Shown here piece after piece: positions 7,278-59,895 of a stretch of 64,000 nt of DNA. Position 1 is the first letter of the stretch, and each line of letters starts with the position of its first letter. The position numbers and the translations under genes are program-made. The DNA is from Corallococcus sp. NCRR (GTDB lineage: Bacteria > Myxococcota > Myxococcia > Myxococcales > Myxococcaceae), in the NCBI RefSeq assembly GCF_026965535.1, contig NZ_CP114039.1, forward strand, positions 5,084,001-5,148,000, given 5' to 3'. The notes under the pieces were generated by a model that saw nothing but the letters and a program-made list of their open reading frames with translations, ran no database searches and had not been told where the DNA came from.

Positions 7278-7315
7278 GAACGGCTATCGACGCAAATCGC
7301 CCACACGACTGCTGT

Positions 7316-7344
7316 TTGGCACTCAAGAGTGCGTGATGAATATG
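7316..7344 (+). promoter_or_regulatory. candidate promoter with an operator-like palindrome
   Basis: TTGGCA, 17 bases, then AATATG. The spacer holds the perfect palindrome GCACTC-AA-GAGTGC (7319-7332), placed where a repressor could block RNA polymerase. It lies about 75 bases before the next start codon. The -10 is weak. Confidence 0.35.
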
Positions 7345-7418
7345 CCGGACACCTGTGCGTTCTTCTGTACAGCGGCGCTCCAAGGGCGCTGGCAATCTCG
7401 CAAGGAAAGGAAGCACCC

Positions 7419-28993: not shown

Positions 28994-29800
28994 TCAACTG
29001 CCGGTGGCTTCGGCCTGCGTGAGGGCCGACAGGGCCCGTCGCAGGCGCTCGACGACAGGACCCAGGTGCGGGTCCTGCATCAGCTCGTGATGGCTGCCGG
29101 GGACGTCGTGCACCTCCAGGCCACCTCGCACCAGGGGCTCCCATCCGCGATGACGCGGAATCCCGGCGGCGGCTTCGCTGGCACTCAGGAGGAGCGCGGT
29201 GCCGTCGTACGGGAGGGGCACGTACTTCTCGTGGGCGAAGAGGTTGGCCCGGAAGACGTTGAAGAGGGCACGCAGCTGGGCAGGGCCGGACTGAGCGTCG
29301 AGGATGCGCGCCCGGAGCCCTTCCTGAAGCAGGTGGCCCAGCATCGCGTCGTCGCTCTGTGCCAGCGCTTCGTCCGTGACGGAGAGCGCCTGGCCGAAGG
29401 CGGTGGCGGTGGCATGGGCGAAGGCGAGCCGGGCGCGGGCTTCGGAGTCGAGCTGTGTCTCGGACTGGGCGGGCTTCGTCAGTCCGTAGAGGTGGGCATC
29501 GATGAGGGCGAGCAGGTCCACGGTTTCGCCCGCCTCGCGCAGGCGGCGGGCCATCTCGTAGGCGATGACACCGCCGAGGGACCAGCCTCCCAGTTGGTAG
29601 GGGCCGTGGGGCTGCACGGTGCGGATGGCTTCGAGGTAGAGGTTGGCCATCTCCTCGATGGACTCGGCGACGGGAAGTCCGTCGAGGCCGCGCGACTGGA
29701 GGCCGTAGATGGGCAGTGAGGGGCCCAGACGGCGCGCCAGCTCTGAGTAGGCCAGGACATTGCCGCCGCCCGGGTGGACGAGGAAGAGAGGCCGCTGGCC
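28994..29800 (-). other. Type I thioesterase domain of the nine-module NRPS
   Basis: Residues ~9514-9782. PLFLVHPGGGN begins the alpha/beta hydrolase fold; GWSLGG holds the nucleophilic serine (codons near 29571-29587) and GSHHEL carries the likely catalytic histidine. It releases the peptide by hydrolysis or cyclisation. Confidence 0.9.
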
Positions 29801-30110
29801 GGGCTCTCCGCGCTCCAGCGGGACGAGCGGCGTCCAGGCCTGTGAGTCGTCACGGAGCACCTGGGCGAGCTGCTCGATGGTGGGCTGCTGGAAGAGGACG
29901 GAGAGGGGAATCGACTGGCCGAGGCGCTCGCGCACGGCGGCGACCATGCGCACGGCGAGCAGGGAGTGGCCGCCCAACTCGAAGAAGCTGGAGCGGACGC
30001 CGACGGAGCGGACGTCGAGGAGGTCCTCCCAGATGCGGGCGAGCTGCATTTCGAGCGCGTCGCGGGGCGCGACGAAGTCCCGGGCCTCGATGGCTTGGAC
30101 ATCGGGTTCG
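28994..30110 (-). repeat. PCP-thioesterase 3' end, copy 1
   Basis: The last ~1.1 kb of the nine-module NRPS gene closely matches the last ~1.1 kb of the upstream NRPS gene (copy 2 at 58769-59895), in both DNA and protein, with the same PCP and thioesterase order. Extents are judged by eye. Confidence 0.75.
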
Positions 30111-33100
30111 GGTAGGGCCTTGCGGTCCACCTTGCCGTTGGCGTTGAGGGGCAGGGCGTCCAGCACGACGACGGCCGACGGCACCATGTACTCGGGCAGG
30201 TGCTGCTTGAGGCCAGCCCGGAGAGTGTCCGCATCCAGCGCATGGCCTTCGCTCGCGGTGACGTAGCCGATGAGGCGCTTGTCCGCGTCCGAGCCCCGGG
30301 CCACGACGATGGCTTCGTTGACGCCGGTTGCGGAGCGCAGGGCGGCTTCGATTTCGCCCAGCTCGATGCGGAAGCCCCGCACCTTCACCTGGAAGTCCAC
30401 GCGGCCCAGGAAGTCGAGCGTGCCGTCCGCCTTCCAGCGGGCCTGGTCGCCCGTACGGTAGAGGCGCTCACCCGGCGTGGAGGCGAAGGGGTGCGGGACG
30501 AAACGCTCCGCGGTCAGCTCGGGGCGGTTCAGGTAGCCCCACGCGAGGCCCTGGCCGCCCACGTACACCTCACCGGCGACACCCACGGGCACCGGGTGCA
30601 GGTGCGCGTCGAGGACGTAGACGGTGGAGTTGGAGAGCGGCCGACCGATGGGGATGGTGCCGTCCACACGCGCACCATGCCGCATGGCGAAGGTGGTGGA
30701 GAAGGTGGTGTTCTCCGTGGGGCCGTAGCCGTTGAGGAACGTCGCGCCTTCGGGAATGCGCGAGAGGTGTTCGCGCACACGGGCGGCAGGCAGCACATCG
30801 CCACCGGCGAGGACCTGACGCACGCCCGCGAGCGCTTCACCCTGGTGCAGGGCCATCTGCTCGAAGAGGGCGGCGGTGAGCCAGAGTGACGTCACGCGGT
30901 GGTGACACAGCTGCGCGGCCAGTTCCTCCAGGGAGAGGGAGTGCGGCGGCGCGAGGACGAGCTTCGCGCCATGCAGCAGCGCGCCCCAGATTTCGAGCGT
31001 GGAGGCGTCGAAGGCCACGGGCGCGAACTGGAGCCAGACTTCGTCGGGCCCGAAGCGCATGAAGGTGCTGCCTAGCACGAGACGCGTGATGCCCCGGTGG
31101 GGAACGCTGACGCCCTTGGGGCGGCCCGTGGAGCCCGAGGTGAACATGACGTAGGCCAGGGCTTCACCGTCCACGCGGACATCGGGCGCGTGCGTGGGCT
31201 GTGCAGTCAGGACATCCTTCTGCGAGTCCAGCCAGACGCGGGTCCCGGAGGCGGGCAGCAGTGAGGCGAAGGGCTGATGCGTTACCACCACGCCCACGTC
31301 CGCGTCCTCCAGCAACATCGCGATGCGGTCCACGGGCGCATTGCGGTCCACGGGGACGAAGGCCGCACCCACCTTGAGGATGGCGAGGAGCGCCGTCACC
31401 AATTCGAAGGAACGTTCGACGGCGAGGCCGACGCGTGCCCCTGGGACGATGCCCAGGGCCCGCAGGTGATGGGCCAACTGGTTCGCGCGTGAATCCAACT
31501 GGGTGTACGTCAGCGAATCATTGCCCCGCACGAGCGCGACAGCGTGAGGCGTGCGCTGGGCCTGCTGGGCGAAGTGGACGTGGACCGGCACGTCTGTCGG
31601 GCTGACGGCGGCCGTGTCGTTCCAATCGACGAGGACGCGCTGCCGCTCGTCGTTGGAGAGAAGCGGCAGGTGGGACATGGACTGGTCGGGCTTCGCGGCC
31701 ACGGCCTCCAGCAGCGTGCGTAGGTGGGCGGCCATCCGCTCCACGGTGCTCTTCTGGAAGAGGGCGGTGCTGTACTCCAGCGTGCCTCGCAGCCCTTCGG
31801 CCGTCTCCGTGAAGAAGACACTCACGTCGAACTTCGACGTCGAGTGGGTGGATTCCAAGCCGCGGAGACGGAGCTCCGGCAGCCGCACGTCCTCCGAGGG
31901 CACGTTCTGGAGCGCGAGCAGCGTCTGGAAGAGGGGCGTATGGCTCAGGCTGCGCGTGGGCTGGAGGACTTCCACCAGCTTCTCGAACGGCACCTCCTGG
32001 TGCTCATAGGCCTCCAGCACCGTGGCGCGCACCTGCTGGAGCAGCGCCCGGAAGGATTGGCCCTCATCCATTCGCGCGCGCAGGACGAGCGTGTTGACGA
32101 AGAATCCGATGAGGCCCTCCGTCTCCGCGCGCGTGCGACCCGCGATGGGCGAGCCCACGCTGATGTCCTGCTGGCCCGTGTAGCGCGACAGCAGTCCCTG
32201 CCAGGCCGCGAGCAGCACCATGAAGAGCGAACCGCCTTCACGGTGGCCCAGGCTCCGCAGCGCTTCAGTCAACTCACGCGAGAGCGTGAAGCCGAGGGTC
32301 GCACCCGCGTTGCTCCGGATGACCGGGCGGGGGAAGTCGGTGGGCAACTCCAGCACGGCCGGAGCGCCGGAGAGCTTCCCCTCCCAGTAGGCCATTTCCT
32401 GCCGCAGCGTCTCACCCGAGAGCGTCCGGCGCTGCCAGTCGGCGTAGTCCGCGTACTGCACGGGAAGGGCAGGCAAGGGCGACGACTGTCCCGCGGAGAA
32501 GGCCGCGTAGAGGGCGGTGACTTCGCGCACGAGCACACTCAGCGACCAGCCGTCGGAGACGATGTGATGCATCGTGACGGCGAGGACGTGCTCGCGTTCG
32601 GAAATCCTGAAGAGCAGCGTGCGGAGGAGCGGGCCGGTGCGCAGGTCGAAGGGCCGGCGCATCTCCTCTTCCACGCGGGCTCGTGCCTCGGGCTCGCGCT
32701 GGGATTCAGGCACGTCCGCGAGGTCCACGAGCCCCAGCGGCAGCGGACTGTCGGGATGGATGTGCTGGACCGGCTCTCCGTCCACCTGGGCGAAGGTGGT
32801 GCGCAGGGCATCGTGCCGGCGCACGACTTCCTGGAGGGCACGCTCCAATACGTCCGTGCGCAGGTGGCCCTCAAGCCGGACGGCGACAGGCACGTTGTAG
32901 AGAGGGCTGCCCGGTTCGAGCTGATCAATGAGCCACAGCCGCTGCTGCGCGAAGGACAGCGGCAACGGACCGTCATGCGAGACGCGCGTGAGCGGCGAAG
33001 TGCTCGTGCTGGAGAGTCCCGAGAGACGAACAGCGAGCGCCTCCACCGTGGGGGACTCGAAGAGCGCGCGCAGCGGGAGTTCGACGTTGAACTCCGTGCG

Positions 33101-36100
33101 CACGCGCGACACCACCTGCGTGGCCAGCAGGGAGTGGCCACCCAGGTCGAAGAAGGAGTCCTTCACGCCCACCTGGGGCAGACGCAGGACTTCGGCCCAG
33201 ATGGATGCCAGCTTCGCTTCGGCTTCTGTCCGAGGCGCTTCGTAGGTGTTGCCGGACTGGGGGGCCTCCGGCTCTGGAAGGGCCTTGCGGTCGACCTTGC
33301 CGTTGGAATTGAGCGGCAGCGCCTCAAGCACCACGAAGGTGGCGGGCACCATGTACTCGGGGAGTCCCTGACGCAGGTGTGCCTTGAGGGCTTCCACCTC
33401 CAGCGAGGCATTGGCCTTGGGAGAGACGTAGGCGACGAGGCGCTTGTCGGCGGCTTCACCCTTGGCGACGACGACGACGTCCTTGAGGCCTGGGACGCGG
33501 CGGAGAGCCGCTTCGATTTCACCCAGCTCGATGCGGAAGCCACGCACCTTCACCTGGAAGTCGATGCGGCCGAGGTACTCCAGGCGCCCGTCGATGCGGT
33601 ACCGGACGCGGTCGCCCGTGCGGTACATGCGGCCGCCCGGAGGACCGTAGGGCTCTGGAACGAAGCGCTCTGCCGTGAGCTCCGGACGCAGCAGGTATCC
33701 ACGCGCCTGGCCTTCGCCCGCGAGGTACAACTCGCCTGCGACGCCCACGGGCACCGGTTGCAGCGAAGCGTCCAGCACATAGGCGCGTGTCGCGGGCAGA
33801 GGCCTGCCAATGAGAGGCACTTCGTCACGGCCGACGAGGGAGGCCGTGGAATAGGTGGTGTCTTCGGACGGGCCGTAGAGGTTGTAGAGCTTCTCAACCG
33901 TAGGCACCGCGTAGACCTGCTTGGCCAACATCTCCGGCAGGGCTTCACCGGCGAGGTTGATGACGCGCACGCTGGGCGGTATCGCGCCCAGGCGCAGCAG
34001 CTGCGCCATAGCGGAGGGCACCGTGTTGACGAGCGTGACGTGAGAGGCGGTGGGCAGCTCGGCCAGGTGCAGGGCGTTCTTCGCCACCACCACCGCGCCA
34101 CCGCTGCTCAACGGGGCGAAAAGCTCGAAGACGGAGAGGTCGAAGTTGAGGCTCGTCGCGGCAAGCGTTCCCTTCAGCTCCTCCGGCGAGAACGTCTCCA
34201 AGGCCCAGTGGAGGAACGTCACGGCGTTGCCATGGGAAATGGCGACACCCTTGGGGCGGCCCGTGGAGCCCGAGGTGTAGATAAGGTAAGCGAGGTGGCC
34301 GGGGTGGATGTCCACCGCGGGTGCTGTCGTCGGCTGCTTCGCCAGCTCCACGTCCGAGTCGAGACTCACGAGCGTTGCGGACGTCTCGGGCAGTGCCGAG
34401 AGCAGGTGCGAATGCGCCACGAGGGCGGGGCCCTGGGCGTCCTCCAGCAGCCAACCCAGGCGCTCACGCGGGTAGCTGGGGTCCAACGGCACGTAGGCGC
34501 CACCGGCCTTGAGAATGCCGAGGGCTCCGATGACGAGGTCCTCGGTGCGCTCAACGCAGAGGCCGACGCGCACTTCGGGCCCGACGCCCAGGCTGCGCAG
34601 GCGGTGGGCGAGCTGGTTCGCCTTCGCATCCAGCTCGCGGTACGTCAGCTGCCGCTCAGGCGTGATGACGGCCAGGGCATCAGGTGTGCGGCGTACCTGA
34701 GCCTCCACCATCGCGGGGATGCTGGGTTCGTTCGGCACCTGTGAGGTAAGGGGATTCCATTCGACGAGGAGTTGCTGGCGCTCCGTGTTGGTGAGAAGCG
34801 GCAGGTCGCCAAGCTTCGTGTCCGGCTTCTCTGCGATGGCCTCCAGCAGCACTCCGAAGTGACCGGCCATGCGCTGGAGGGTCGCCGCGTCGAACAGGTC
34901 CGTCGCGTACTCGAACGTGCCGACGAATCCATCCCGGCCTTCACGCAGGCCCAGGGAGAGATCGAACTTCGCGAAGTGGGCTTCCAGAGGCAGGGCCTGG
35001 AAGGACAAGCCCGGCAGACGCAGTGCCTCATTCGGCGTGTTCTGCAGGACGAACATGGCCTGGAAGAGCGGGCTGCGGCTCAGGTCTCGCGTGGGCTGCA
35101 CGGCTTCGACGAGCTTCTCGAACGGCAGGTGCTGGTGTTCGAAGGCCGCGAAGGTCGTGCCTCGCACCTGGGTCAACAGGTCGCGGAACGTCGCACGTGA
35201 ATCCAGCCGGGCACGCAGCACGAGCGTGTTGACGAAGAAGCCAATGAGTCCCTCGGTCTCCGCCTGGGTGCGGCCCGCGATGGGCGAGCCCACGCTGATG
35301 TCGTCCTGCGCGGAGTAGCGCGACAGCAGCACCTGGAATGCCGCCAGCAGCGTCATGAAGGGCGTGGCGCCTTCTCGCTGCGCCAGAGCCTTGAGTGCGT
35401 GAGAGACCTCAGAGGAGATGTGCACGTCCACCTTGGCGCCCCGGTGCGACTGCACGGGTGGCCGAGGCCGGTCAGTGGGCAGCTCCAGCGCCGCGGGCGC
35501 TCCGGAGAGCTGCTGCTTCCAGAAGTGGATCTGCGCGTCCAGCGCCGCCCCCTGGAGCCAGTTCCGCTGCCATGCCGCGAAGTCCGCGTACTGCACGGGC
35601 AGGGGCGCGAAAGCAGGCGTGCCGCCCGTGGCGAAGGCCTCGTAGAAGGCCACCATCTCCCGAACGAGCACACCCATGGACCAGCCGTCGGAGACGATGT
35701 GGTGCATCGTCACCAGCAGCAGGTGGGAGTCCTCGGTCAGACGCACCAGCGTGCTGCGCAGCAGCGGGCCCTTCGAAAGGTCGAACGGACGACGCGCTTC
35801 CTCATTGGCCAGTCGCCGCGATTCCTCCTCCTGGAACGCCTCGGGATGGGTGGAGAGGTCCACGAGCGGCAGCGTCCAGCCGCTGGCGGCGTGGATGGTC
35901 TGGATGGGCTGCTCCTGATGCGCATGGAAGGTGGTGCGCAGGGCCTCGTGGCGATGGACGAGTGATTCGAAGGCACGGCGCAGTGCCTCCACGTCCAGGT
36001 GCCCGGAGAGCTGGAGAGCGGTGGGAAGGTTGTACGACGCGTCCCCAGGCTGGAGCTGATCCAAGAGCCACAGCCGCTGCTGCGCGAAGGACAGCGGCAG

Positions 36101-54100: not shown

Positions 54101-57100
54101 GTGTTCGTAGGCGGCGAGCGTGGTGGCCTTCACCTGGGCCAGCAGTTCGCGGAATGTCGCCTGCGGATCCACCTGGGACCGCAGGACGAGCGTGTTGACG
54201 AAGAAGCCGATGAGGCTTTCGGCCTCGGCGTGGGTGCGGCCGGCGATAGGGGAGCCGACGGAGATGTCGTCCTGGCCGGAGTAGCGGGAGAGCAGCAGCT
54301 GGAAGGCGGAGAGCAGCAGCATGAAGGGCGTGGCGCCTTCACGCTGGGCGAGGCCGCGCAGCGAGTCCGTCAGCTGCGAAGGGAAGTGCACGGGCATCGT
54401 GGCGCCGCGCAGGGACTGGACGGCCGGACGCGGGCGGTCGGTGGGCAGCTCCAATGCCGCGGGCGCACCCGCCAACTGATGCTTCCAGTAGCGGAGTTGG
54501 AACTCCAGCGCTTCGCCCTGGAGCCACTGACGCTGCCAGACGGCGAAGTCCGCGTATCGCACGGGCAGCGGTGGCAGGGAGGGAGCCCGGCCGCCACTGA
54601 AGGACTCATAGAGGCTCGCCAGTTCGCGGATGAGGACGCCCATGGACCAGCCGTCGGAGACGATGTGGTGCATCGTCGCGAGGAGGACGTGGGATTCGGC
54701 TGAGAGCTTGAGAAGGGCCGTGCGCAGCAGCGGCCCTCGGACGAGGTTGAAGGGCTGCCGGGCTTCACGGGTAGCGAGCCGCAACGTCTCTTCCTCTCGC
54801 GCGGACTCATCGAGGGAAGAGAGGTCCTGCACGGGGAGCGCCCATGGGGCCGGAGGATGGATGCGCTGGAAGGGCTGACCCTCTTCCTCGAAGAAGGTGG
54901 TGCGCAGCGCTTCATGGCGCGCCACGAGGGCTTCGAAGGCCCGGCGCAGGGCCTCGACATCCAGGCGGCCCAGGAGGCGCAGGGCGACGGGCAGGTTGTA
55001 GGACGCGTCGTCCGGGGTCAGCTGGTCGAGGAACCAGAGGCGCTGCTGCGCGAAGGAGAGCGGCTGCGGGCCTTCGGTGCGCGTGCGCGTCAGGGAGGGC
55101 AGGCGCGTGCCGGTCGCGGCGCGCTGGAGGCGTTCGGCCAGTGCGGCGATGGTGGGGGCTTCGAAGAGGGCACGAAGCGGCAGCTCCATGTCGAGCGCCG
55201 CGCGCACGCGGGCCACCAGTTGCGTGGCGAGCAGGGAGTGGCCCCCCAGCTCGAAGAAGTTGTCGGTGCGGCCCACGGTGGGGACGCGCAGCACTTCGCT
55301 CCAGAGGGTCGCGAGCTTCTCCTCCAGCGGCGTCGCCGGGGCCTCGTAGGCGTGTGACGCCCGGAGCGCGCCCGCATCCGGAGCAGGAAGGGCCTTGCGG
55401 TCCACCTTGCCGTTGGACGTCAGCGGCAGCGCCTCCATGGAGACGAAGGCGGCGGGCACCATGTACTCGGGCAGGTGCTGCTTCAGGTGGGCGCGGAGCG
55501 TGGTGACGTCGAGAGCGTCACCGACGACGTAGGCGACGAGTCGCTTTTCGCCCGGAGCATCCTCGCGGGCGAGCACGACGGCGTCCTTCACGGCTGGGGC
55601 TGCACGCAGGGCGTTCTCGACTTCGCCCAGCTCGATGCGGAAGCCGCGGACCTTCACCTGCGCGTCGATGCGACCGATGAAGTCCAACTGGCCATCCGCG
55701 CGCCAGCGCACCACGTCGCCCGTGCGGTAGAGGCGAGCCCCTTCCTCACCGGAGAAGGCGTCCGGCACAAAGCGCTCGGCGGTGAGGCCCGGCCGGCCCG
55801 CGTACCCGCGCGCGACGCCCACGCCACCGATGTGCAACTCACCGCGCACTCCCACGGGCACCGGCTGCCCGTGAGGGTCCAGCACGTAGACGCACACGTT
55901 CGCCAGCGGCTTGCCGATGGACGGCACTTCTCCATCCGCCACCACCTCACCGAAGGTGGCGATGACGGTGGCTTCGGTGGGGCCGTAGGTATTGAGCAGG
56001 CGCCGTCCCGGAGCCCAGCGCGCGACGACGTCCGCAGGCAGGGCTTCGCCGCCGGAGATGACGGTGCGTACCTTGGGCAGGCCCTCGGAGGATGTCGCTG
56101 CCAGGGCCGCGGGGGTGAGGCTGACGACGCTCAGCTCCTGCTCACGCAGCAGCACGGGCAGAGGCGCGCCCGGCATCAACTTCTCCAACGGGGCCAGCAC
56201 CAGCGTGGCGCCGTTGCAGAGCGTGGTGAAAATCTCCTCCACGGAGAGGTCGAAGCTGAGGCTGGCGAACTGCAACACGCGGCTGCCGGGGCCGATGCCG
56301 TACGCCACCGCTTCATGGGTGACGAGGTTGGCGACACTGCGGTGCTCCACCGCCGTGCCCTTGGGCGTCCCCGTGCTGCCCGAGGTGTAGAGCAGGTACG
56401 CCATATTGGCGGGCGTTACACCCGTCACGGGCGCATCCGTTGGCTCCTGCGCCAGGGACTCGCGCTCCGTATCCAGGCAGAGGGCGCGGGCATGCAGTGC
56501 TTCGGGGAAGCGGTCCACCAGCGGCTGCTGGGTGACGAGCACCTGGGCCGCGCTGTCCTCCAGCATGAAGGCCAGACGCTCGCGGGGAAGAAGCGGATCC
56601 ACGGGCACCCAGGCGCCACCGGCCTTCAGGATGCCGAGCAGGCCGATGACGACGTCGAGGGACCGCTCGACGCTGAGTGCGACGCGGACCTCCGGGCCCA
56701 CGCCACGGCGGCGCAGGGCATGGGCAAGCTGATTGGCGCGCGCGTCCAGTTGCGCGTACGTCAGCTGCACTCCCTCGAAGACAGCGGCCACCGCGTCAGG
56801 AGCGCGGCGCACCTGCGCCTCGAAGAGCGAGTGCATGCACGCTTCAGGGAACGGCGCCCGCGTGGCGTTCCAATCCACCAACATCTGCTGGCGCTCATCC
56901 GCCGCGAGCAACTGCAGCGACGACACGCGCTGATCCGGCTTCGCGATGGCCTCCTGCAGGAGCACGCGCAGGTGCTCGGCCATGCGTGAGGCGGTGGAGG
57001 CGGTGAAGATGTCGGTGGTGTATTCGAGATAGCCCTTGAGGCCGGCGTCCGTTTCCAGCACCTGGAGGGTGAGGTCGAACTTGGCGGAGAAGGTATCGAG

Positions 57101-58342
57101 CTCCAGGGCCTCCAGCTTGACGCCCTCGACGGTGGCGGCGCCGCGGAAGGAGGCTTGGTAGGTGAGCATCACCTGGAAGAAGGGAGTGCGCCCCGGGATG
57201 CGCTCGGGCTTCAACTCCTCCACGAGCCGCTCGATGGGCAGTTCCTGGTGCTCCTGGGCACCGAGCACCGTCTCCCGCACCTGACGCAGCAGGGTGCGGA
57301 ATGAAGCCGTGCCAGTCACGCGGGTGCGAAGCACCTGGGCGTTGACGAAGAGGCCGATGAGGCCCTCCACCTCGCCGCGAGTACGGCCCGCCATGGGAGA
57401 GCCGACGGTGACGTCCTCCTGGCCGGAGTAGCGGGCCATCAGCATCTGCCAGCCCGTCAGCAGCGCCATGTAGAGGGAAGCGCCTTCCTGCTGCGCCAGG
57501 GCCTTGAGTGCGTCCGTCAACTCGCGCGGCAGCAGCACGTCATGCCGGGCGCCTCGGCCATCTCGCGTCGCGGGGCGGGGGAAGTCGGTGGGCAGCTCCA
57601 GCGCGGAAGGCACCTCGGCCAACTGACGCTTCCAGTAATCGAGCTGCTTCTCCAGCCGGGGGCCCTGCATCCACTCGCGCTGCCAGACGCCGAAGTCCGC
57701 GTACTGGATGCCCAGCGGCGGCAGGGGCGCTGCCTGGCCTCGCGCGAAGGCCCCGTAGAGGAGCGCCACCTCGCGCACCAGCAGCGTCATGGACCAGCCG
57801 TCGGAGATGATGTGGTGCACCACCACGACGAGCAGATGCTCTGCCGGTGCCGACGTCAGTAGCAGCGCGCGCAGCAGCGGGCCCTTCGCGAGGTCGAAGG
57901 GCCGCGCGGCCTCTTCACGTGCCAGACGCCACACGTCCTCTGGCTGCGAGCCCGTGAGCGCCTTGCGCTCCAGGGTGAGCACGGGCTCCGGCGACACCAC
58001 CAGCACGGGGCCGGACGCGTCCTCGCGGAAGGTGGTGCGCAGCACTTCATGACGGCGCACCACTTCGCGCAGCGCGCGCTCCAGGACGGCCACGTCGAGT
58101 GCGCCCTCCAGGCGCACCGCCATGGGCACGTTGAAGAGGGACGTGCCGGGCTGGAGCTGATCAATGAACCAGAGGCGCTGCTGGGCGAAGGACAGGGGCA
58201 AGGGCCGCGAGCGGTCCTGCACCGGGATGAGGCCTTGCACGGAGTTGCCCGCGGTGGCCTTTTGAGCGGCCATCTTCTTGAGCAACTCGGCGCGCTTCTC
58301 CGGTGAGAGGTTGGCGATCCGCTTCGACAGCTCGTGGCTCAT
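28994..58342 (-). CDS. Nine-module nonribosomal peptide synthetase with thioesterase
   Basis: About 9,782 residues in one polypeptide. The ATG at 58342 (MSHELSKRIANLSPEKRAEL) is chosen because GGAG lies 8 bases before it and because this helical leader is common at NRPS N-termini; a GTG 20 codons upstream is less likely. Order: nine C-A-PCP modules, then a thioesterase with GWSLGG. All nine condensation domains keep HHI[IV]SDG, all A domains keep YTSGSTG.PKG (FTSGSTG in some) and all PCPs keep GGHSLL, so every module looks active. There are no epimerisation, methylation or ketosynthase insertions. A-pocket residues suggest Lys-like?-Gln-Val-Ala-(Val/Leu)-Glu-Ala-Ala-Val. A condensation domain before the first A domain implies an acyl (lipo-) starter or a donor from another protein. 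I do not recognise the product. No PPTase, MbtH or exporter genes are visible nearby. Confidence 0.97.
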   Translation of the reverse strand: MSHELSKRIANLSPEKRAELLKKMAAQKATAGNSVQGLIPVQDRSRPLPLSFAQQRLWFIDQLQPGTSLFNVPMAVRLEGALDVAVLERALREVVRRHEVLRTTFREDASGPVLVVSPEPVLTLERKALTGSQPEDVWRLAREEAARPFDLAKGPLLRALLLTSAPAEHLLVVVVHHIISDGWSMTLLVREVALLYGAFARGQAAPLPPLGIQYADFGVWQREWMQGPRLEKQLDYWKRQLAEVPSALELPTDFPRPATRDGRGARHDVLLPRELTDALKALAQQEGASLYMALLTGWQMLMARYSGQEDVTVGSPMAGRTRGEVEGLIGLFVNAQVLRTRVTGTASFRTLLRQVRETVLGAQEHQELPIERLVEELKPERIPGRTPFFQVMLTYQASFRGAATVEGVKLEALELDTFSAKFDLTLQVLETDAGLKGYLEYTTDIFTASTASRMAEHLRVLLQEAIAKPDQRVSSLQLLAADERQQMLVDWNATRAPFPEACMHSLFEAQVRRAPDAVAAVFEGVQLTYAQLDARANQLAHALRRRGVGPEVRVALSVERSLDVVIGLLGILKAGGAWVPVDPLLPRERLAFMLEDSAAQVLVTQQPLVDRFPEALHARALCLDTERESLAQEPTDAPVTGVTPANMAYLLYTSGSTGTPKGTAVEHRSVANLVTHEAVAYGIGPGSRVLQFASLSFDLSVEEIFTTLCNGATLVLAPLEKLMPGAPLPVLLREQELSVVSLTPAALAATSSEGLPKVRTVISGGEALPADVVARWAPGRRLLNTYGPTEATVIATFGEVVADGEVPSIGKPLANVCVYVLDPHGQPVPVGVRGELHIGGVGVARGYAGRPGLTAERFVPDAFSGEEGARLYRTGDVVRWRADGQLDFIGRIDAQVKVRGFRIELGEVENALRAAPAVKDAVVLAREDAPGEKRLVAYVVGDALDVTTLRAHLKQHLPEYMVPAAFVSMEALPLTSNGKVDRKALPAPDAGALRASHAYEAPATPLEEKLATLWSEVLRVPTVGRTDNFFELGGHSLLATQLVARVRAALDMELPLRALFEAPTIAALAERLQRAATGTRLPSLTRTRTEGPQPLSFAQQRLWFLDQLTPDDASYNLPVALRLLGRLDVEALRRAFEALVARHEALRTTFFEEEGQPFQRIHPPAPWALPVQDLSSLDESAREEETLRLATREARQPFNLVRGPLLRTALLKLSAESHVLLATMHHIVSDGWSMGVLIRELASLYESFSGGRAPSLPPLPVRYADFAVWQRQWLQGEALEFQLRYWKHQLAGAPAALELPTDRPRPAVQSLRGATMPVHFPSQLTDSLRGLAQREGATPFMLLLSAFQLLLSRYSGQDDISVGSPIAGRTHAEAESLIGFFVNTLVLRSQVDPQATFRELLAQVKATTLAAYEHQHVPFEKLVEVLQPVRDLSRSALFQVMLVLQNAPAEALRVPGLAFQPIPLEGNSSRFDLSLTLFEVPQGLTGFIEYSTDLFDASTVQRLVGHLGVLLEAIAAQPEATLASLPLLTAQERQQLLVDWNRTDVEFPRDTCFHEAFTAQALRTPEALAVICRDQQLTFQELDARSNQLAHRLVKLGVGPDVRVVLCVDRSVEALVGILGILKAGGAYVPLDFRYPREWLAHVLSDTGAPVVLTQQRVRDVLPQHTAHVVLLDPDAAELAAESREAPGVAVSPEHLAYIIYTSGSTGRPKGVMIQHRSVMNLRQGLANTVHQGRSAGERVSVNAPLSFDASVQQLVQVLDGHTLCIVPEEARADAGELVKRIGQDALEVLDCSPAHLRMLVDEGLLEKDVLPQRALVGGEAVDPGTWSSLAQHPRLRAFNVYGPTECTVDATACAFDASATPTIGRPLSNVRAYVLDKSLRPVPMGVAGELFLGGEGVARGYLNRPELTAERFIPDAFSSTPGARLYRTGDVVRWRADGMLDYLGRADFQVKVRGFRIELGEIESTLLKHPQVHAAVVLAREDSPGDKRLVAYVVPTEGTGSALTADILKDWLKQHLPEHMRPSAFLVLEALPLNANGKVDRKALPAPQAVAPKSTYVAPRTPAEEQLAALFTQVLRVERVGIHDDFFALGGHSLLATQLVSRVRAAFRVELPLRALFEAPTVATLVERLNAQTPSLRPPPLTRIQADGPQPLSFAQHRLWFLDQLTPGDASYNIPTALRLTGPVDVESLRRAFEALVARHDALRTTFRESQGQATQHIHTPGTWALPLIDLSTQPESRREDEAQRMVEAAARQPFDLRNGPLLRTALVRLAAEEHLLLVTMHHIVSDGWSMGVLVRELVTFYESFSSGQMPALPPLPVQYSDFAAWQRDWLQGETLDAQLGYWKQQLAGAPATLELPTDHPRPAIQSHTGATHAVRISQATSEALKALAQREGATPFMVLLAAWQVLLSRYSAQDDITVGSPIAGRTQAETEGLIGFFVNTLVLRARVTPEDTFRELLAQVRGTTLAAYEHQHVPFEKLVEALQPVRDASRSPLFQVMFVLQNAPGEALRVPGLTFRPVAAESHSAKFDLTLTLQDSPQGFTGWMEYSTALFERSTIERMDSHLRTLLEAVAAKPEQPMAELSLLSREERQRVLVEWNDTAAVSPTDVPVHVHFARQAQRTPDAVALVLGDATLTYAQLDARANQLAHHLRALGIVPGARVGLAVERSFELVTALLAILKTGAAFVPVDRNAPVDRIAMLLEDADVGVVVTHQPFASLLPASGTRVWMDAQSAEIAALPTHAPDVRVDGEALAYVMFTSGSTGRPKGVSVPHRGITRLVLGSTFMRFGPDEVWLQFAPVAFDASTLEIWGALLHGAKLVLAPPHSLSLEELAAQVRHHRVTSLWLTTALFEQMALHQGEAIAGVRQVLAGGDVLPADRVREHLGRLSEGATFHNAYGPTENTTFSTTLTMRHGMRVEGAIPIGRPISNSTIYVLDAHLHPVPVGVAGEVYVGGQGLAWGYLNRADLTAERFVPHPVATTPGERLYRTGDKARWKADGTLDFLGRLDFQVKVRGFRIELGEIEAALRALPGVNEAVVVARGADAGKRLVGYVTARAGASLDVDLLRADLKQHLPEYMVPSAFMVLDTLPLNANGKVDRKALPEPEETSRAAFVAPRNPTEEQLATLFAEVLRVERIGIHDDFFAMGGHSLLATQLVSRVRATLGLELPLRALFDAPTVAALALKLEDTRPAATRGAPAILPVPRTTGAIPLSFAQQRLWFLDQLTPGDASYNIPSALRLKGPVDVESLRRAFESLVARHESLRTTFHEHEGQATQHIHLPDAWTLPLVDLSALPDMQREDEAQRRIAKEANQPFHLERGPLLRTTLVRLAEEDHFLLVTMHHIVSDGWSMGVLVRELVAFYEAFTSGQTPTLAPLPVQYADFAERQRQWLQGEALDAQLGYWKQQLAGAAFALELPTDHPRPAIQSHQGAAVSVRIPQATSEALKALAQREGATPFMVLLAAFQVLLSRYSAQDDITVGSPIAGRTQAETEGLIGFFVNTLVLRAHVQPRSTFRELLSQVRGTTLAAYEHQHLPFEKLVEVLQPARDASRSPLFQVMFALQNAPVGDLRIRGLTFQQVTTEGRSAKFDLNLAMQDSPQGFVGSLEYSTALFERSTIERMCSHLLTLLEAVATRPEQSVATLPLLSSDERRQILVEWNPPATQAPREPSIPAMVEAQVRRTPDALAVITPERQLTYRELDAKANQLAHRLRGLGVGPEVRVGLCVERTEDLVIGALGILKAGGAYVPLDPSYPRERLGWLLEDAQGPALVAHSHLLQALPETSATPVCLDSDAELTKQPTTAPSVDIHPGHLAYLIYTSGSTGRPKGVAISHGNAVAFLHWALETFSPEELKGTLAATSLNFDLSVFELFAPLSSGGAVVVAKNALHLAELPTASHVTLVNTVPSAMAQLLRLGAVPPSVRVINLAGEALPETLAKQVYAVPTVEKLYNLYGPSEDTTYSTASLVGRDEVPLIGRPLPATRAYVLDASLQPVPVGVAGELYLAGEGQARGYLLRPELTAERFLPEPYGPPGGRMYRTGDRVRYRLDGRLEYLGRLDFQVKVRGFRIELGEIEAALRAFQGVNEAVVVARGADADKRLIGYVTARAGVSLDADALKAQLRRSLPEYMVPSAFMVLDALPLNANGKVDRKALPEPEETARTVAYVAPRTANEKQLAALFTEVLRVERVGLHDDFFALGGHSLLATQLVSRVRATLGLELPLRALFDAPTVAALALKLADARPAVARGAPALRPSSRTGAIPLSFAQQRLWFLDQLTPGDASYNIPSALRLKGPVNVESLRRAFESLVARHESLRTTFHEHEGQATQHIHLPDAWTLPLVDLSALPDMQREDEARRRIAKEANQPFHLERGPLLRTTLVRLAEEDHFLLVTMHHIVSDGWSMGVLVRELVAFYEAFTSGQTPTLAPLPVQYADFAERQRQWLQGEALDAQLGYWKQQLSGAAFALELPTDHPRPAIQSHQGAAVSVRIPQTTSEALKTLAQREGATPFMVLLAAFQVLLSRYSAQDDITVGSPIAGRTQAETEGLIGFFVNTLVLRTRVAPEESFRTLLAQVRGTTLAAYEHQHLPFEKLVEVLQPVRDTSRSPLFQVMFALQNAPVGELRVRGLTFQQVTTEGRSAKFDLNLAMQDSPQGFVGSLEYSTALFKRGTVERMARQLLTLLEAVATRPEQSVSGLSLLSSEERQRILVEWNDTTVASPTDIPVHVHFARQAQRAPEAVALVLGEASLTYGQLDARANQLAHHLRELGIAPGARVGLAVERSFELVTATLAILKVGATYVPVDRNAPVERIASLLEDADVHFIVTHQPFAALLPATGTRVWLDAQRDVIATRPTHAPDVRVDGEAMAYVMFTSGSTGRPKGVCIPHRGITRMVVGSTFMRFGADEVWLHVAPIAFDASTLEIWGALLNGSKLVLAPPHSLSLEELAELLRRHGVTTLFLTTALFEQMALHQGEALAGVRQILSGGDVLPADRVREHLARIPEGATFHNAYGPTESTTLATTFAMGHGSRVEGAIPVGRPPSNSTVYVLDGHLHPVPVGIAGEVYVGGQGLAWGYLHRPDLTAERFIPHPFATKPGERLYRTGDQARWRDDGTLDFLGRVDLQVKVRGFRIELGEIETALRSAAGVNEAVVVARGTGADKRLIGYVTARAGHSPTPETLRAGLKQRLPEYMVPSAFMVLDALPINANGKVDRKALPEPGNTARSTAFVAPRTTTEEQLATLFAEVLRVERIGVRDDFFAMGGHSLLATQLVSRVRSTFRVELPLRALFEAPTVEGLAPKLEEARSAGLRAPPLRPLPREGAIPLSFAQQRLWLLDQLQPGDISYNIPTALRLTGQVDIEALRRAFEALVERHESLRTTLTPSQEEPSQCIHAPSGWELPVIDLTALPESRREEEAQLAAATEARRAFGLSTGPLLRSTLVRLAAEEHLLLVTMHHIVSDGWSMGVLVREVAAFYEGFVTGQRPSLPPLPVQYADFSMWQRGWLQGEALDAQLGYWKKQLGGAPSALDLPTDHPRPPVQSRRGATVDVRIPLEVSQALKTLAQDEGATPFMLLLAAWQLLLSRYSTQDDISVGTPIAGRTQAETEGLIGFFVNTLVLRAHVQPQATFRELLAQVRRTTLAAYEHQHVPFEKLVEVLQPSRDLSRSALFQAMFSLQNAPTEALRVSGLSFQSVPVDTRSSKFDLTLTLGESPQGFGGTLTYATDLFDVSTVQRMSGHLGVLLEAIAAQPDATLASLPLLTAPERQQLLVDWNGPSAEFPRDLCLHEAFSAQALRTPDALAVICREEQLTFRELEVRANQLAHRLVKLGVGPDVRVVLCVERSVEALVGILGTLKAGGAYVPIDPSYPREWLAHVLTDTSAPVVLTQQRLRDSLPPHSAHTLCLDSDAADLALESQGAPVTSVSAEHLAYIIYTSGSTGRPKGVMIQHRSVLNLRVALAATVHADAQPGERVSVNAPLSFDASVKQLIQVLDGHTLCIVPDEARADVSELVNRIGQDALDVLDCSPAHLRLLVDEGLLERKAIPHRVLVGGEAVDPATWRHLAQAPRPRVFNVYGPTECTVDATACAFDASPTPTIGRPLPNVRVYVLDRTLRPVPVGVAGELFIGGAGVARGYLNRPELTADRFIPDAFSSTPGDRLYRTGDVVRWRADGMLDYLGRADFQVKVRGFRIELGEIESRLLGHPAVHQAVVLAREDVPGDKRLVAYLVPEAGESLDSTELRTFLKQHLPEYMVPSAFLVLEALPLNTNGKVDRKALPAPHSDALASTYVAPRTPAEEQLAALFTQVLRVERVGVHDDFFALGGHSLLATQLVSRVRATFRVNLPLRALFEAPTVATLAERLQAATPNLDLPALTRASHDGPLPLSFAQQRLWLLDQLQPGDASYNIPTALQLSGQLDVESLRRAFEALVHRHEALRTTFHEHQDQPIQNIHAPSGWALPLVDLSARPEALREEEARRLANEEARRPFDLSKGPLLRSTLVRLAEDFHLLLVTMHHIVSDGWSTGVLVREVAAFYAAFSTGQSPSLPPLPVQYADFATWQRNWLQGKALDAQIHFWKQQLSGAPAALEMPTDHLRPPVQSHRGDSVDVRIPKHIADALKALSQKEGATPFMTLLAAFQVLLSRYSAQDDVSVGTPIAGRTQAETEGLIGFFINTLVLRARLNPRATFRDLLTQVRGTTLAAYDHQHLPFEKLVEAVQPARDLSRSPLFQAMFVLQNTPTEALRLPGLAFQALPQEAHFAKFDLSLGLREGGDGFVGTLEYATDLFDTATIQRMARHFGVLLEAIAKKPDTKLGDLPLLTDAERQQLLVEWNPAAPLMPRESSIAAMVEAQVRRTPDALAVITPERQLTYWELDAKANQLAHRLRGLGVGPEVRVGLCVERTEDLVIGALGILKAGGAYVPLDPSYPRERLGWLLEDAQGPALVAHSHLLQALPETTATPVCLDSDVDLAKQPTTAPSLDIHPGHLAYLIYTSGSTGRPKGVAISHGNAVAFLHWALETFSPEELKGTLAATSLNFDLSVFELFAPLSSGGAVVVAKNALHLAELPTAAHVTLVNTVPSAMAQLLRLGAVPPSVRVINLAGEALPETLAKQVYAVPTVEKLFNLYGPSEDTTYSTASIVGRDEVPLIGRPLPATRAYVLDASLQPVPVGVAGELYLAGDGQARGYLLRPELTAERFLPEPYGPAGGRMYRTGDRVRYRIDGRLEYLGRIDFQVKVRGFRIELGEIEAALRRAPGIKDVVVIAKGEAADKRLVAYVSPKANASLEVEALKTHLRQGLPEYMVPATFVVLEALPLNSNGKVDRKALPEPEAPQSGNIYEAPRTEAEAKLASIWAEVLRLPQVGVKDSFFELGGHSLLATQVVSRVRAEFNVELPLRALFESPTVEALAGRLQGSATSQAPKLTRVSHDGPLPLSFAQQRLWLLDQLQPGDASYNLPTALQLSGHLDVEALRRAFESLVHRHEALRTTFHAHQEQPIQTIHAASGWTLPLVDLSTHPEAFQEEESRRLANEEARRPFDLSKGPLLRSTLVRLTEDSHLLLVTMHHIVSDGWSMGVLVREMVAFYEAFATGGTPAFAPLPVQYADFAAWQRNWLQGAALDAQIHFWKQQLSGAPAALELPTDRPRPPVQSHRGAKVDVHISSEVSHALKALAQREGATPFMTLLAAFQVLLSRYSAQDDISVGSPIAGRTQAETEGLIGFFVNTLVLRARLDSRATFRDLLTQVRGTTFAAFEHQHLPFEKLVEAVQPTRDLSRSPLFQAMFVLQNTPNEALRLPGLSFQALPLEAHFAKFDLSLGLREGRDGFVGTFEYATDLFDAATLQRMAGHFGVLLEAIAEKPDTKLGDLPLLTNTERQQLLVEWNPLTSQVPNEPSIPAMVEAQVRRTPDALAVITPERQLTYRELDAKANQLAHRLRSLGVGPEVRVGLCVERTEDLVIGALGILKAGGAYVPLDPSYPRERLGWLLEDAQGPALVAHSHLLSALPETSATLVSLDSDVELAKQPTTAPAVDIHPGHLAYLIYTSGSTGRPKGVAISHGNAVTFLHWALETFSPEELKGTLAATSLNFDLSVFELFAPLSSGGAVVVAKNALHLAELPTASHVTLVNTVPSAMAQLLRLGAIPPSVRVINLAGEALPEMLAKQVYAVPTVEKLYNLYGPSEDTTYSTASLVGRDEVPLIGRPLPATRAYVLDASLQPVPVGVAGELYLAGEGQARGYLLRPELTAERFVPEPYGPPGGRMYRTGDRVRYRIDGRLEYLGRIDFQVKVRGFRIELGEIEAALRRVPGLKDVVVVAKGEAADKRLVAYVSPKANASLEVEALKAHLRQGLPEYMVPATFVVLEALPLNSNGKVDRKALPEPEAPQSGNTYEAPRTEAEAKLASIWAEVLRLPQVGVKDSFFDLGGHSLLATQVVSRVRTEFNVELPLRALFESPTVEALAVRLSGLSSTSTSPLTRVSHDGPLPLSFAQQRLWLIDQLEPGSPLYNVPVAVRLEGHLRTDVLERALQEVVRRHDALRTTFAQVDGEPVQHIHPDSPLPLGLVDLADVPESQREPEARARVEEEMRRPFDLRTGPLLRTLLFRISEREHVLAVTMHHIVSDGWSLSVLVREVTALYAAFSAGQSSPLPALPVQYADYADWQRRTLSGETLRQEMAYWEGKLSGAPAVLELPTDFPRPVIRSNAGATLGFTLSRELTEALRSLGHREGGSLFMVLLAAWQGLLSRYTGQQDISVGSPIAGRTRAETEGLIGFFVNTLVLRARMDEGQSFRALLQQVRATVLEAYEHQEVPFEKLVEVLQPTRSLSHTPLFQTLLALQNVPSEDVRLPELRLRGLESTHSTSKFDVSVFFTETAEGLRGTLEYSTALFQKSTVERMAAHLRTLLEAVAAKPDQSMSHLPLLSNDERQRVLVDWNDTAAVSPTDVPVHVHFAQQAQRTPHAVALVRGNDSLTYTQLDSRANQLAHHLRALGIVPGARVGLAVERSFELVTALLAILKVGAAFVPVDRNAPVDRIAMLLEDADVGVVVTHQPFASLLPASGTRVWLDSQKDVLTAQPTHAPDVRVDGEALAYVMFTSGSTGRPKGVSVPHRGITRLVLGSTFMRFGPDEVWLQFAPVAFDASTLEIWGALLHGAKLVLAPPHSLSLEELAAQLCHHRVTSLWLTAALFEQMALHQGEALAGVRQVLAGGDVLPAARVREHLSRIPEGATFLNGYGPTENTTFSTTFAMRHGARVDGTIPIGRPLSNSTVYVLDAHLHPVPVGVAGEVYVGGQGLAWGYLNRPELTAERFVPHPFASTPGERLYRTGDQARWKADGTLDFLGRVDFQVKVRGFRIELGEIEAALRSATGVNEAIVVARGSDADKRLIGYVTASEGHALDADTLRAGLKQHLPEYMVPSAVVVLDALPLNANGKVDRKALPEPDVQAIEARDFVAPRDALEMQLARIWEDLLDVRSVGVRSSFFELGGHSLLAVRMVAAVRERLGQSIPLSVLFQQPTIEQLAQVLRDDSQAWTPLVPLERGEPGQRPLFLVHPGGGNVLAYSELARRLGPSLPIYGLQSRGLDGLPVAESIEEMANLYLEAIRTVQPHGPYQLGGWSLGGVIAYEMARRLREAGETVDLLALIDAHLYGLTKPAQSETQLDSEARARLAFAHATATAFGQALSVTDEALAQSDDAMLGHLLQEGLRARILDAQSGPAQLRALFNVFRANLFAHEKYVPLPYDGTALLLSASEAAAGIPRHRGWEPLVRGGLEVHDVPGSHHELMQDPHLGPVVERLRRALSALTQAEATGS
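29800..32966 (-). other. NRPS module 9 (C-A-PCP), predicted Val
   Basis: Residues ~8459-9513. Pocket residues D-A-L-W-L-G-G-T-F, close to the standard valine code. The C domain belongs with that of module 1 (LERAL.EVVRRH instead of LRRAFE.LV.RH). The PCP reads FFELGGHSLLAVRM, the form that precedes the thioesterase. Confidence 0.65.
32974..36100 (-). other. NRPS module 8 (C-A-PCP), predicted Ala
   Basis: Residues ~7414-8456. Pocket residues D-L-F-N-N-A-L-T-Y. Nearly the whole module repeats module 7, a likely whole-module duplication. PCP: FFDLGGHSLLATQ. Confidence 0.65.
36108..39236 (-). other. NRPS module 7 (C-A-PCP), predicted Ala
   Basis: Residues ~6369-7411. Pocket residues D-L-F-N-N-A-L-T-Y, the same A-domain type as modules 4 and 8. 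The C domain motif reads HHIVSDGWST. The PCP and the linker to the next C domain closely match those of module 8. Confidence 0.65.
39244..42404 (-). other. NRPS module 6 (C-A-PCP), predicted Glu
   Basis: Residues ~5313-6366. Pocket residues D-A-K-D-L-G-V-V-D match a known glutamate code. It differs from module 2 (Gln) in the pocket only by Lys for Gln at position 239. Confidence 0.75.
42412..45575 (-). other. NRPS module 5 (C-A-PCP), aliphatic residue?
   Basis: Residues ~4256-5310. Pocket residues D-A-L-F-L-G-A-T-L, related to modules 3 and 9 but changed at positions 278 and 331, so the specificity may differ (Leu/Ile/Val range). Its C domain is a near copy of that in module 4. Confidence 0.5.
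44228..45760 (-). repeat. duplicated PCP-C block, copy in modules 4/5
   Basis: From the PCP core of module 4 through the whole C domain of module 5, the DNA nearly matches 47372-48920. In the ~195 bases around the HHIVSDG codons only about two differences are visible. Confidence 0.8.
45583..48719 (-). other. NRPS module 4 (C-A-PCP), predicted Ala
   Basis: Residues ~3208-4253. Pocket residues D-L-F-N-N-A-L-T-Y, a code I associate from memory with alanine in cyanobacterial and myxobacterial synthetases. The A domain is nearly identical to those of modules 7 and 8 and of the upstream NRPS. The C domain is nearly identical to that of module 5. Confidence 0.65.
47372..48920 (-). repeat. duplicated PCP-C block, copy in modules 3/4
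   Basis: Partner of the block at 44228-45760. The A domains that follow (Ala-type versus Val/Leu-like) are different, so the copied unit ends at the C/A border. Confidence 0.8.
48727..51897 (-). other. NRPS module 3 (C-A-PCP), predicted Val-like
   Basis: Residues ~2148-3205. Pocket residues D-A-L-W-L-G-A-T-F differ at one position from module 9 and are close to the valine code DA[FL]W[IL]GGTF. A branched aliphatic residue is likely. PCP: FFAMGGHSLLATQ. Confidence 0.6.
51905..55072 (-). other. NRPS module 2 (C-A-PCP), predicted Gln
   Basis: Residues ~1090-2146. Pocket residues D-A-Q-D-L-G-V-V-D match the glutamine code known from lichenysin synthetase module 1. The A domain is closely related to that of module 6. 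PCP: FFALGGHSLLATQ. Confidence 0.75.
55080..58203 (-). other. NRPS module 1 (C-A-PCP), unassigned, possibly basic residue
   Basis: Residues ~46-1088. The condensation domain has HHIISDG and resembles that of module 9 more than those of modules 2-8. Pocket residues read as D-L-E-S-I-G-T-V-I; six of nine match the bacitracin Lys code as I remember it (DAESIGSVC), so a Lys/Orn-like substrate is a weak guess. PCP: FFELGGHSLLATQ. Confidence 0.6.
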
Positions 58343-58495
58343 CTCGTGTACTCCGCACTGGGGGATGCCATTGCGCACGAGCGCTACCCGCAAGGGTGGC
58401 ACCCGTGAGACCTCAGACTGCTGCTGACGCTGGATTGCCGTTCTGGACCGCGCTCACGGGGGAAGCGCGGCGATGGGCAAATTCGCGGTGGTTAC

Positions 58496-58523
58496 ATTAT
58501 TCCGTAACGACATGACGTGTCAT
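58496..58523 (-). promoter_or_regulatory. candidate promoter for the nine-module NRPS
   Basis: On the minus strand ATGACA (58523-58518), 16 bases, AATAAT (58501-58496): each hexamer is 5/6 to the sigma-70 consensus. The palindrome CATGAC-GT-GTCATG (58511-58524) covers the -35 and could be an operator. Confidence 0.5.
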
Positions 58524-58768: not shown

Positions 58769-59895
58769 TCAGCTTCCCGTGGGCGCGCCCGACTCGCTGC
58801 TCGACGCACGGGCGAGGATCAGACGCAGTCTCTCCACGATGGATTCGAGGTGCGGGTCCTGCAGCAGCTCATGATGGCTGCCGGGGACGTCGTGCACCTC
58901 CAGGCCACCACGGACGAGGGGCTCCCAGCCGCGGTGACGTGGGAGCTCGGTCGCGGCCTCGCTGGCGCTCAGCAGCAGGGCGGCGCCGTCGTACGGCCGG
59001 GGCACGTACTTCTCCTGCGCGAAGAGGTTGGCCTGGAAGACGCGGAAGAGGGCGCGCAGTTGAGCGGCCCCGGAGTGCGCGTCGAGGATGCGTGCGCGGA
59101 CTCCTTGCTGGAGCAGGTGGTCCAGCATCGCGTCGTCGTTGCCTTGTGCCAGTGCCTCGTCCGAGACGGAGAGTTCCTGACCGAAGGCGGTGGCCGTCGT
59201 CTGCGCGAAGGCGATCCGGACTCGGGCTTCGGAAGAGAAGTGGGGTTCTGTTTCGGAAGGCGGCGTGATGCCGGGCACGTGGGCGTCGATGAGTGCGAGC
59301 ACATCCACGGCTTCGCCCGCCTCGCGCAGGCGGCGGGCCATCTCGTAGGCGATGACGCCGCCGAGCGACCAGCCTCCCAACTGATAGGGACCGCGCGGCT
59401 GCACGGTGCGGATGGCTTCGATGTAGAGGCTGGCCATCTCCTCGATGGATTCAGCGACGGGCCGTCCGTCGAGGCCGCGTGACTGGAGGCCGAAGACGGG
59501 CAGTGAGGGCCCCAGCCTGCGCGCCAGCTCCGAGTAGGCCAGGACGTTGCCGCCGCCGGGATGGACGAGGAAGAGGGGCCGCTGTCCAGGCTCTCCGCGC
59601 TCCAGGGGAACGAGGGGCGTCCAGGCCTGCGAGTCGTCGCGGAGCACCTGCGCGAGCTGCTCGACGGTGGGCTGCTGGAAGAGGACGGAGAGAGGAAGGC
59701 TGAGCCCGAGCCGCTCACGGATGGACGCGAGCATGCGCACGGCGAGCAGGGAGTGGCCGCCCAACTCGAAGAAGCTGGAGCGGACGCCGACGGAGCGGAC
59801 GCCGAGGACGTCCTCCCAGATGCGGGCGAGCTGCATTTCGAGCGCGTCGCGGGGCGCGATGAAATCCCGGGCCTCGATGGCGTGGGCATCGGGTT
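58769..59895 (-). repeat. PCP-thioesterase 3' end, copy 2
   Basis: Partner of 28994-30110. Differences are scattered substitutions plus a small length change near the residues after ALIDAH, so the copies have begun to diverge. Confidence 0.75.

Follow-up and report, generated by a model that had tools for sequence, protein, structure and literature searches.

Three neighbouring nonribosomal peptide synthetases of Corallococcus as a probable array of independent, recombining assembly lines

We analysed a 64,000-nucleotide stretch (the window; G000:C1:5084001-5148000) of the one-contig, 9,787,125-bp genome of Corallococcus sp. NCRR, which holds the nonribosomal peptide synthetase (NRPS) gene C in full and the 3′ part of its neighbour, B. 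Gene C is the third of three synthetases, A, B and C, that stand side by side, each self-contained with a leading condensation domain and a thioesterase (TE) of its own. We consider it highly likely that this array comprises three independent paralogous NRPS lines, with 8 modules in A, 7 in B and 9 in C, that diversify by intragenomic recombination. The exchange is most visible in the cores of the adenylation domains, which mostly resemble their paralogues in the same genome more closely than their positional counterparts in another.

Three complete synthetases in tandem

Gene C encodes 9,782 amino acids (aa) from an ATG at 58342 on the minus strand, and the protein begins MSHELSKRIANLSPEKRAELLKK; a longer GTG-started open reading frame (ORF) of 9,802 aa covers 28994-58402 (-). 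The Pfam families found in it are Condensation, AMP-binding, AMP-binding_C, PP-binding and one Thioesterase, apart from a marginal HALZ match (2e-6) that is taken for chance. The motifs HHxxxDG, A3, NGKV (A10) and GGHSL each occur nine times and there are no internal stops, bearing out a sequence-only reading of this DNA that had described nine intact condensation-adenylation-peptidyl carrier protein (C-A-PCP) modules in one polypeptide. That reading had presented a single nine-module synthetase; the polypeptide is single, but the C-terminal TE had been missed and the gene is one of three. Chance origin is no concern, because 28 domains (9 condensation, 9 adenylation, 9 PCP and the TE) follow in order within a 29-kb open frame. 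The condensation domains, one per module, are regularly spaced at ~1,050 aa and therefore leave no space for epimerization (E) domains. Among the Pfam families found in synthetase C none is a methylation, oxidation or reduction domain, and the dual C/E motif HH[IL]x4GD has no match across 18 synthetase genes scanned, so the earlier statement that gene C lacks epimerization and tailoring domains holds. The array as a whole has neither an E domain nor a dual C/E motif, the marks of an NRPS that incorporates D-residues, and all PCPs of the own-genome array carry GGHSL, the form tied to LCL in the cited part of PMC10212144. The features are as follows.

28994..58342 (-): NRPS C, nine C-A-PCP modules and TE (ORF, Pfam, motifs)
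56860..58240 (-): leading condensation domain, HHIISDG intact (motif, structure-sequence comparison, tree)
55118..58252 (-): module 1, DLESIGTVIK, Lys-like (pocket code, PMC3207962)
51944..55117 (-): module 2, DAQDLGVVDK, Gln or Glu (pocket code, PMC12283262)
48770..51943 (-): module 3, DALWLGATFK, Val-like (pocket code)
45626..48769 (-): module 4, DLFNNALTYK, taken as Ala (pocket code)
42455..45625 (-): module 5, DALFLGATLK, Val/Ile-like (pocket code)
39287..42454 (-): module 6, DAKDLGVVDK, Glu (pocket code, PMC10548584)
36152..39286 (-): module 7, DLFNNALTYK, taken as Ala (pocket code)
33017..36151 (-): module 8, DLFNNALTYK, taken as Ala (pocket code)
29816..33016 (-): module 9, DALWLGGTFK, Val (pocket code)
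28997..29815 (-): thioesterase, GWSLGG, release domain (Pfam E 2.5e-34)
58496..58523 (-): promoter-like ATGACA-N16-AATAAT, spanning -181 to -154 relative to the ATG of C
58769..64000 (-): 3′ part of NRPS B, its ORF cut by the window edge

Gene B (G000:C1:5142769-5165766; 7,650 aa from ATG) has seven modules and its own TE, and gene A (G000:C1:5166138-5192306; 8,722 aa) has eight modules and a TE, both on the strand of C. The array spans 79,313 bp and 24 modules with intergenic gaps of 371 and 366 bp. The starts of the three proteins have the N-terminal peptide MS[HQ]ELSKRIANLSPEKRAELLKK in common, and each protein ends in a TE with GWSLGG. HHxxxDG, NGKV and GGHSL are intact in 24/24 array modules of this genome without an internal stop, so that the array shows both features of a modular (type I) NRPS, repeated intact C-A-PCP units and a terminal release domain. 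Array genes in three other genomes (G003, G013 and G007) are likewise open, with matching condensation, adenylation and PCP counts and a TE present. A fourth synthetase, D (G000:C1:4816256-4845457), lies ~270 kb from the array; it has nine modules, its TE shows 59% identity to the one in C, and it shares most of the N-terminal peptide.

Upstream of the array genes we observed a recurring promoter-like element. ATGACA with an ATA-containing -10-like box starts 175-183 nt before the ATG in 12/12 array genes of the four genomes, inside an upstream region conserved among them. The spacer is 16 bases in 11/12 (that of A in G007 was reported as 18, and 15 with AATAAT fits too). The same pattern occurs in 0/6 D genes within the 420 nt upstream that were searched. 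Each array gene thus probably has a promoter copy of its own, as judged by these patterns. Since every protein carries a TE and a leading condensation domain and every gene has its element, three separate lines are the simplest reading. Below the promoter-like element, within 58343-58523 and in the other array leaders, the sequence around GCTTCTCCCGGGAGAGC might fold into a small hairpin whose variation between genes seems, by eye, to be compensating; in the consensus fold computed for these leaders (-19.8 kcal/mol) that hairpin is absent.

Homogenization of adenylation-domain cores

We compared the array with that of G003 at 17 positions of the A and C genes that have the same code order. The best paralogue within the own genome was closer than the positional orthologue at 14/17 positions for A1-A3, 14/17 for A3-A5 and 12/17 for A5-A10, against 8/17 for condensation domains and 6/17 for PCPs. 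Third codon positions alone gave 14/17, 14/17, 12/17, 8/17 and 7/17 in the same order; protein-level constraint is therefore no explanation. Paralogues of one genome that are closer than positional orthologues, third positions included, are what concerted evolution produces. Across the 94 array modules of the four genomes, the nearest neighbour with the same code lay in the same genome for 80/94 modules in A1-A3, 81/94 in A3-A5, 74/94 in A5-A10, 55/94 in PCPs and 46/94 in condensation domains. Shuffles, which ignore relatedness, gave means near 19 (18.8 for A3-A5, 18.7 for condensation domains), and 0/2,000 reached the count of any segment. The condensation domains favour the same genome in Val (15/19), Lys (8/12) and Leu (7/8) modules, and show little such preference in Ala (11/30) and Glu (4/12) modules.

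The exchange runs across gene boundaries and stays within the array. For the A3-A5 core the nearest neighbour belongs to another gene of the same array in 60/94 cases, to the same gene in 21/94 and to D in 0/94. The 34 cores of D are closest to their own gene (23), to D of another genome (7) or to an array module (4). Homogenization is thus local, and the distant relative D is not drawn in.

Individual junctions can be traced in the mosaic. In module 1 of B, the condensation domain matches A module 1 (82% aa) and the adenylation domain matches A module 2 (96% DNA, A1-A3), while the condensation domain of A module 2 itself is only 47% identical to that of B module 1. The switch point falls ~20-30 residues N-terminal to the W-N-A-T motif in the C-A linker. 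Gene A is therefore set apart from B and C by the gain or loss of a single A(Gly)-PCP-C unit. In G013, whose gene C is read as KLEVvEAAV, module 2 of that gene is closest to the B and A genes of G013 itself, modules 3 and 4 are closest in their A1-A5 parts to modules within the A and C genes of G013, and the condensation domain of module 4 is instead closest to own-genome C module 3. Tracts of up to 99% DNA identity occur between array genes. As in bifurcated or duplicated NRPSs, these are paralogous synthetases that differ by recombination.

These observations are consistent with the following mechanism. Whole-gene duplication would have produced three paralogous synthetases in tandem. Each line, if active, would have its own promoter copy, start at its own leading condensation domain and release its product by its own TE. 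The adenylation cores would be exchanged and homogenized among neighbouring modules and genes, with condensation domains and PCPs keeping their place more often, and at least one A-PCP-C unit would have been gained or lost by a crossover near the C-A linker.

Distribution, empty sites and predicted products

We searched with the TE of gene C in a genus sample of 16 genomes and a family sample of 96. At E 1e-40 there were matches in 16/16 genus genomes, many of those listed below 50% identity. Among the matches listed, TEs of at least 73% identity were present in at least 14/16 genomes, and three such TEs in at least 9/16, the remaining five of the 14 being fragmented drafts; D-type TEs (59-62%) were listed in at least 12/16. 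The TE is 91% identical in Corallococcus sp. AS-1-6 and 88% in C. interemptor. Across the family, 34/96 genomes matched at E 1e-62 with at most 26 first-look candidates scored per genome. Outside the genus, G029 and G030, of one other genus, reached 62-63% and the other rows 47-53%. A Myxococcaceae metagenome-assembled genome with a TE 72% identical is probably the genus member G012.

Tandem order was checked in our genome and in G003, G013 and G007, picked for long contigs; the modules in A/B/C number 8/7/9, 8/7/9, 7/6/9 and 9/6/9, respectively. Of 17 flank proteins of our locus, 16 were found beside the array of G003, 14 in G013 and 14 in G007. In all three genomes one was missed, as were a further two in G007; the retrieved sequence probably stops short of them. 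G013 is without two flank proteins whose place falls inside its stretch. At E 1e-62 neither G010 nor G015 has a TE of the array family. Both array-free genomes keep the two flanks on one contig, separated by 2.1 kb in G010 and 1.2 kb in G015 versus ~79.7 kb in our genome. With the flanks 1-2 kb apart in array-free genomes, the locus consists of the three synthetases alone, and in the comparisons of array with empty site (G010, G015) we saw no linked gene for loading, tailoring, transport or regulation. The filler in the array-free genomes (L083 of G010, ~5284-7394; L084 of G015, ~2829-4039) is unlike our locus and has small ORFs.

Candidate tailoring genes nearby were rejected. The flanking DNA that holds the DHOR and UbiA/HAD genes persists where the array is absent. 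The FAD_binding_4 gene is present in 12/12 genomes tested, a set that included eight genomes from five further genera as well as the array-free G010 and G015.

Substrate codes were read by alignment to the GrsA pocket, which reproduced the codes previously read by eye for all nine modules of C. We take DLFNNALTYK to specify Ala; a literature text search did not find the array code strings, this one included, in print. Module 3 of A and module 2 of B gave DAWMLGHVVK or DAWFLGHVVK in two readings, the latter preferred because F then stands opposite position 278. DLESIGTVIK is called Lys-like because it shares 6/8 pocket letters with DAESIGSV, the Lys code of bacitracin BacB (PMC3207962). The code DAKDLGVV is the first of a surfactin cluster, where it stands for Glu/Asp (PMC10548584), and DALWIGGTFK (Val) and DAWFLGNVVK (Leu), as they appear in the cited parts of the code papers, are each one letter off array codes. 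The peptide first proposed for C keeps its order of Lys-like, Glx, Val, Ala, Val or Ile, Glu, Ala, Ala and Val, but its 'Gln' is uncertain and may be Glu, since DAQDLGVVDK recognizes Glu as well as Gln according to the relevant passage of PMC12283262.

The predicted products of our array are Gly-Lys-Leu-Glu-Ala-Ala-Glu-Val for A, Lys-Leu-Ala-Val/Ile-Ala-Ala-Ala for B and Lys-Glx-Val-Ala-Val/Ile-Glu-Ala-Ala-Val for C. In one-letter form, with v for Val/Ile-like, the predictions per genome are:

Own genome: A GKLEAAEV, B KLAvAAA, C KQVAvEAAV, D VVVAAAKAA
G003: A GKLEAAEV, B KQVVAAA, C KQVAvEAAV
G013: A GKLEVAV, B KLAvAA, C KLEVvEAAV
G007: A GKLEVVEAV, B KLAVAA, C KQVAVEAAV

The peptides are expected to consist of L-residues throughout and, judging from the locus, to be untailored. 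For unmodified linear peptides with Val at the Val/Ile-like positions and Gln for Glx, the calculated [M+H]+ is 816.446 for A, 643.414 for B and 914.531 for C, each lower by 18.011 after cyclization; a C14:0 or C16:0 acyl group would bring C to 1124.729 or 1152.760. The nearest solved relative of the TE of C is ABBFA_003403 (4zxh; 141 bits), compatible with hydrolysis or cyclization, so that release could be linear or cyclic. D has 7-9 modules in six genomes, and its Lys-like code either comes late or is missing.

The leading condensation domain of C had been thought to suggest an N-acylated lipopeptide. A condensation domain with intact HHIISDG does lead the protein, but the suggestion is weak. 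Among the references for condensation subtypes, which were solved structures, this domain scored best with Txo1 (361 bits) and Txo2 (360 bits), whose domains we take to be of the internal type, versus 79 to the starter domain of CDA synthetase (4jn3) and 78 to that of RzmA (7c1h). An internal condensation domain of synthetase C, used as a control, behaved alike (371 bits versus 72 and 91 to the starter domains), and the leading domain of synthetase F, at 6.37 Mb, gave 321 bits versus 61 and 67. By sequence, the leading domain is not of the starter kind. In the tree, the 12 leading domains from the four arrays nevertheless group as a single clade (support 1.0), even though the adenylation domain that follows is a Gly domain in A and a Lys-like one in B and C. 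This grouping suggests that they share a donor, perhaps an acyl group. When the leading domains of D were added, the 18 were not monophyletic. We hold the chances about even that the products are N-acylated with a cap taken from the general acyl-coenzyme A or acyl carrier protein (ACP) pool.

Alternative explanations and related systems

Several points weigh against the reading of three independent, recombining lines. The recombination counts come from four genomes picked for unbroken arrays, and relatedness plays no part in the shuffles behind them. Condensation domains (46/94) and PCPs (55/94) also exceed the shuffles, which makes the pattern a gradient and not one confined to adenylation cores. 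The promoter-like elements are counted as raw pattern matches without a chance expectation. Substrate codes are predictions, Ala for DLFNNALTYK included, and the products and expression of the array are predicted from sequence. A, B and C may also interact, for example via the conserved N-terminal peptide.

The rival readings fare worse. It is very unlikely that C is a stand-alone synthetase for one acylated nonapeptide, as had been proposed from the window, with neighbours unrelated to it: gene C is complete by itself, its nine-module length is constant in four arrays and HHIISDG is intact in its leading domain, but B and A share with it the leading domain, TE, promoter-like element and adenylation cores, and that leading domain is unlike solved starter domains. 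We judge it very unlikely that the three proteins work in sequence as one long line, like colinear multi-gene NRPS operons, to give one peptide with as many as 24 residues. The genes are adjacent on one strand in the order A-B-C with gaps of only 371 and 366 bp, yet a complete TE with GWSLGG ends each protein, on which ground we rejected a 24-module line; moreover, each gene is preceded by an upstream element of its own, and module number varies in A (8, 8, 7, 9) and B (7, 7, 6, 6), with C constant at 9. Near-identical tracts of up to 99% DNA could also mean that one line works and the others are decaying or silent relics kept as recombination partners. We regard this as highly improbable, with 0 stops and 0 lost motifs in 24/24 modules of our array and with open genes, matching domain counts and TEs in the three other genomes.

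A further-reaching reading is possible, although we hold it only tentatively and think it rather doubtful: the array may be a standing combinatorial diversification locus, in which adenylation cassettes would be swapped and homogenized by local gene conversion on a slower condensation-domain framework, giving each species a small all-L peptide family of its own, with related and untailored members. If true, this would be a natural form of laboratory exchange-unit engineering, working across gene boundaries. NRPS engineering needs working fusion points, and paralogous modules of the array in several species show joins kept by evolution: frequent exchange of adenylation cores, rarer exchange of condensation domains, and the gain or loss of an A-PCP-C unit with its join close to the C-A linker. 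The locus is also a concrete target, since each strain has three predicted products of calculable mass and no further linked gene varies together with the array. A puzzle is why 24 NRPS modules should be spent on plain L-peptides of proteinogenic residues; misleading codes, or capping or cyclization as the point, would be a way out.

The separate ingredients are already known from the cited parts of earlier work. Concerted evolution of NRPS and polyketide synthase domains (Medema et al. 2014, PMC4256081) shows cluster-specific branching by internal recombination, including the adenylation and most condensation domains of daptomycin-type clusters; here it acts between separate complete genes, strongly on adenylation and more weakly on condensation domains, and spares D at ~270 kb. 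Adenylation cores are the preferred unit of Acore exchange (Baunach et al. 2021, PMC8097286), as they are here, but in the array most of the cores have been pulled together, and the breakpoint of one A-PCP-C gain or loss lies close to the C-A linker. In the bifurcated wollamide/desotamide NRPS (Booth et al. 2022, PMC9205934), gene duplication and intragenomic recombination likewise yield related synthetases with different peptides; recombination there is with a second NRPS locus, whereas the array shares cores mainly internally and keeps three complete lines across the genus. In the RzmA/HolA starter-type synthetases (PMC7804268), too, a condensation domain comes first and the cluster contains neither an acyl ligase gene nor an ACP gene, but the array domain differs in its 78 bits to the RzmA starter domain versus 361 to Txo1. 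New, as far as we found, is the combination of three tandem complete lines, genus-wide, with cores shared across gene boundaries.

Literature searches among open-licence papers gave no product matching the peptide of C, in keeping with the earlier remark that it was unrecognized, and no published product of, or paper on, this locus. The described Corallococcus products corramycin, corallorazines and coralinone are of NRPS origin in the same genus and do not fit the array; going by their descriptions, they are a methylated hydroxyhistidine peptide, a cyclic lipodipeptide and a pyrazinone, in contrast to untailored lines of 7-9 modules.

The contig as a whole has 105 condensation-domain matches (104 above the cut-off), including further open frames of >9,000 aa near 6.37, 6.88, 6.92 and 7.27 Mb. 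Synthetases E (7.27 Mb) and F (6.37 Mb) were considered as array relatives and rejected, since their N-termini and most codes differ; the TE of E is 41% identical. At G000:C1:7265472-7297043 a 10,523-aa synthetase has a first adenylation domain that looks acyl-AMP-ligase-like by eye, and it is a better lipopeptide candidate than the array. Positions 1-3760 of the window hold the tail of a 4,117-aa ORF whose in-window part is rich in TPR repeats.
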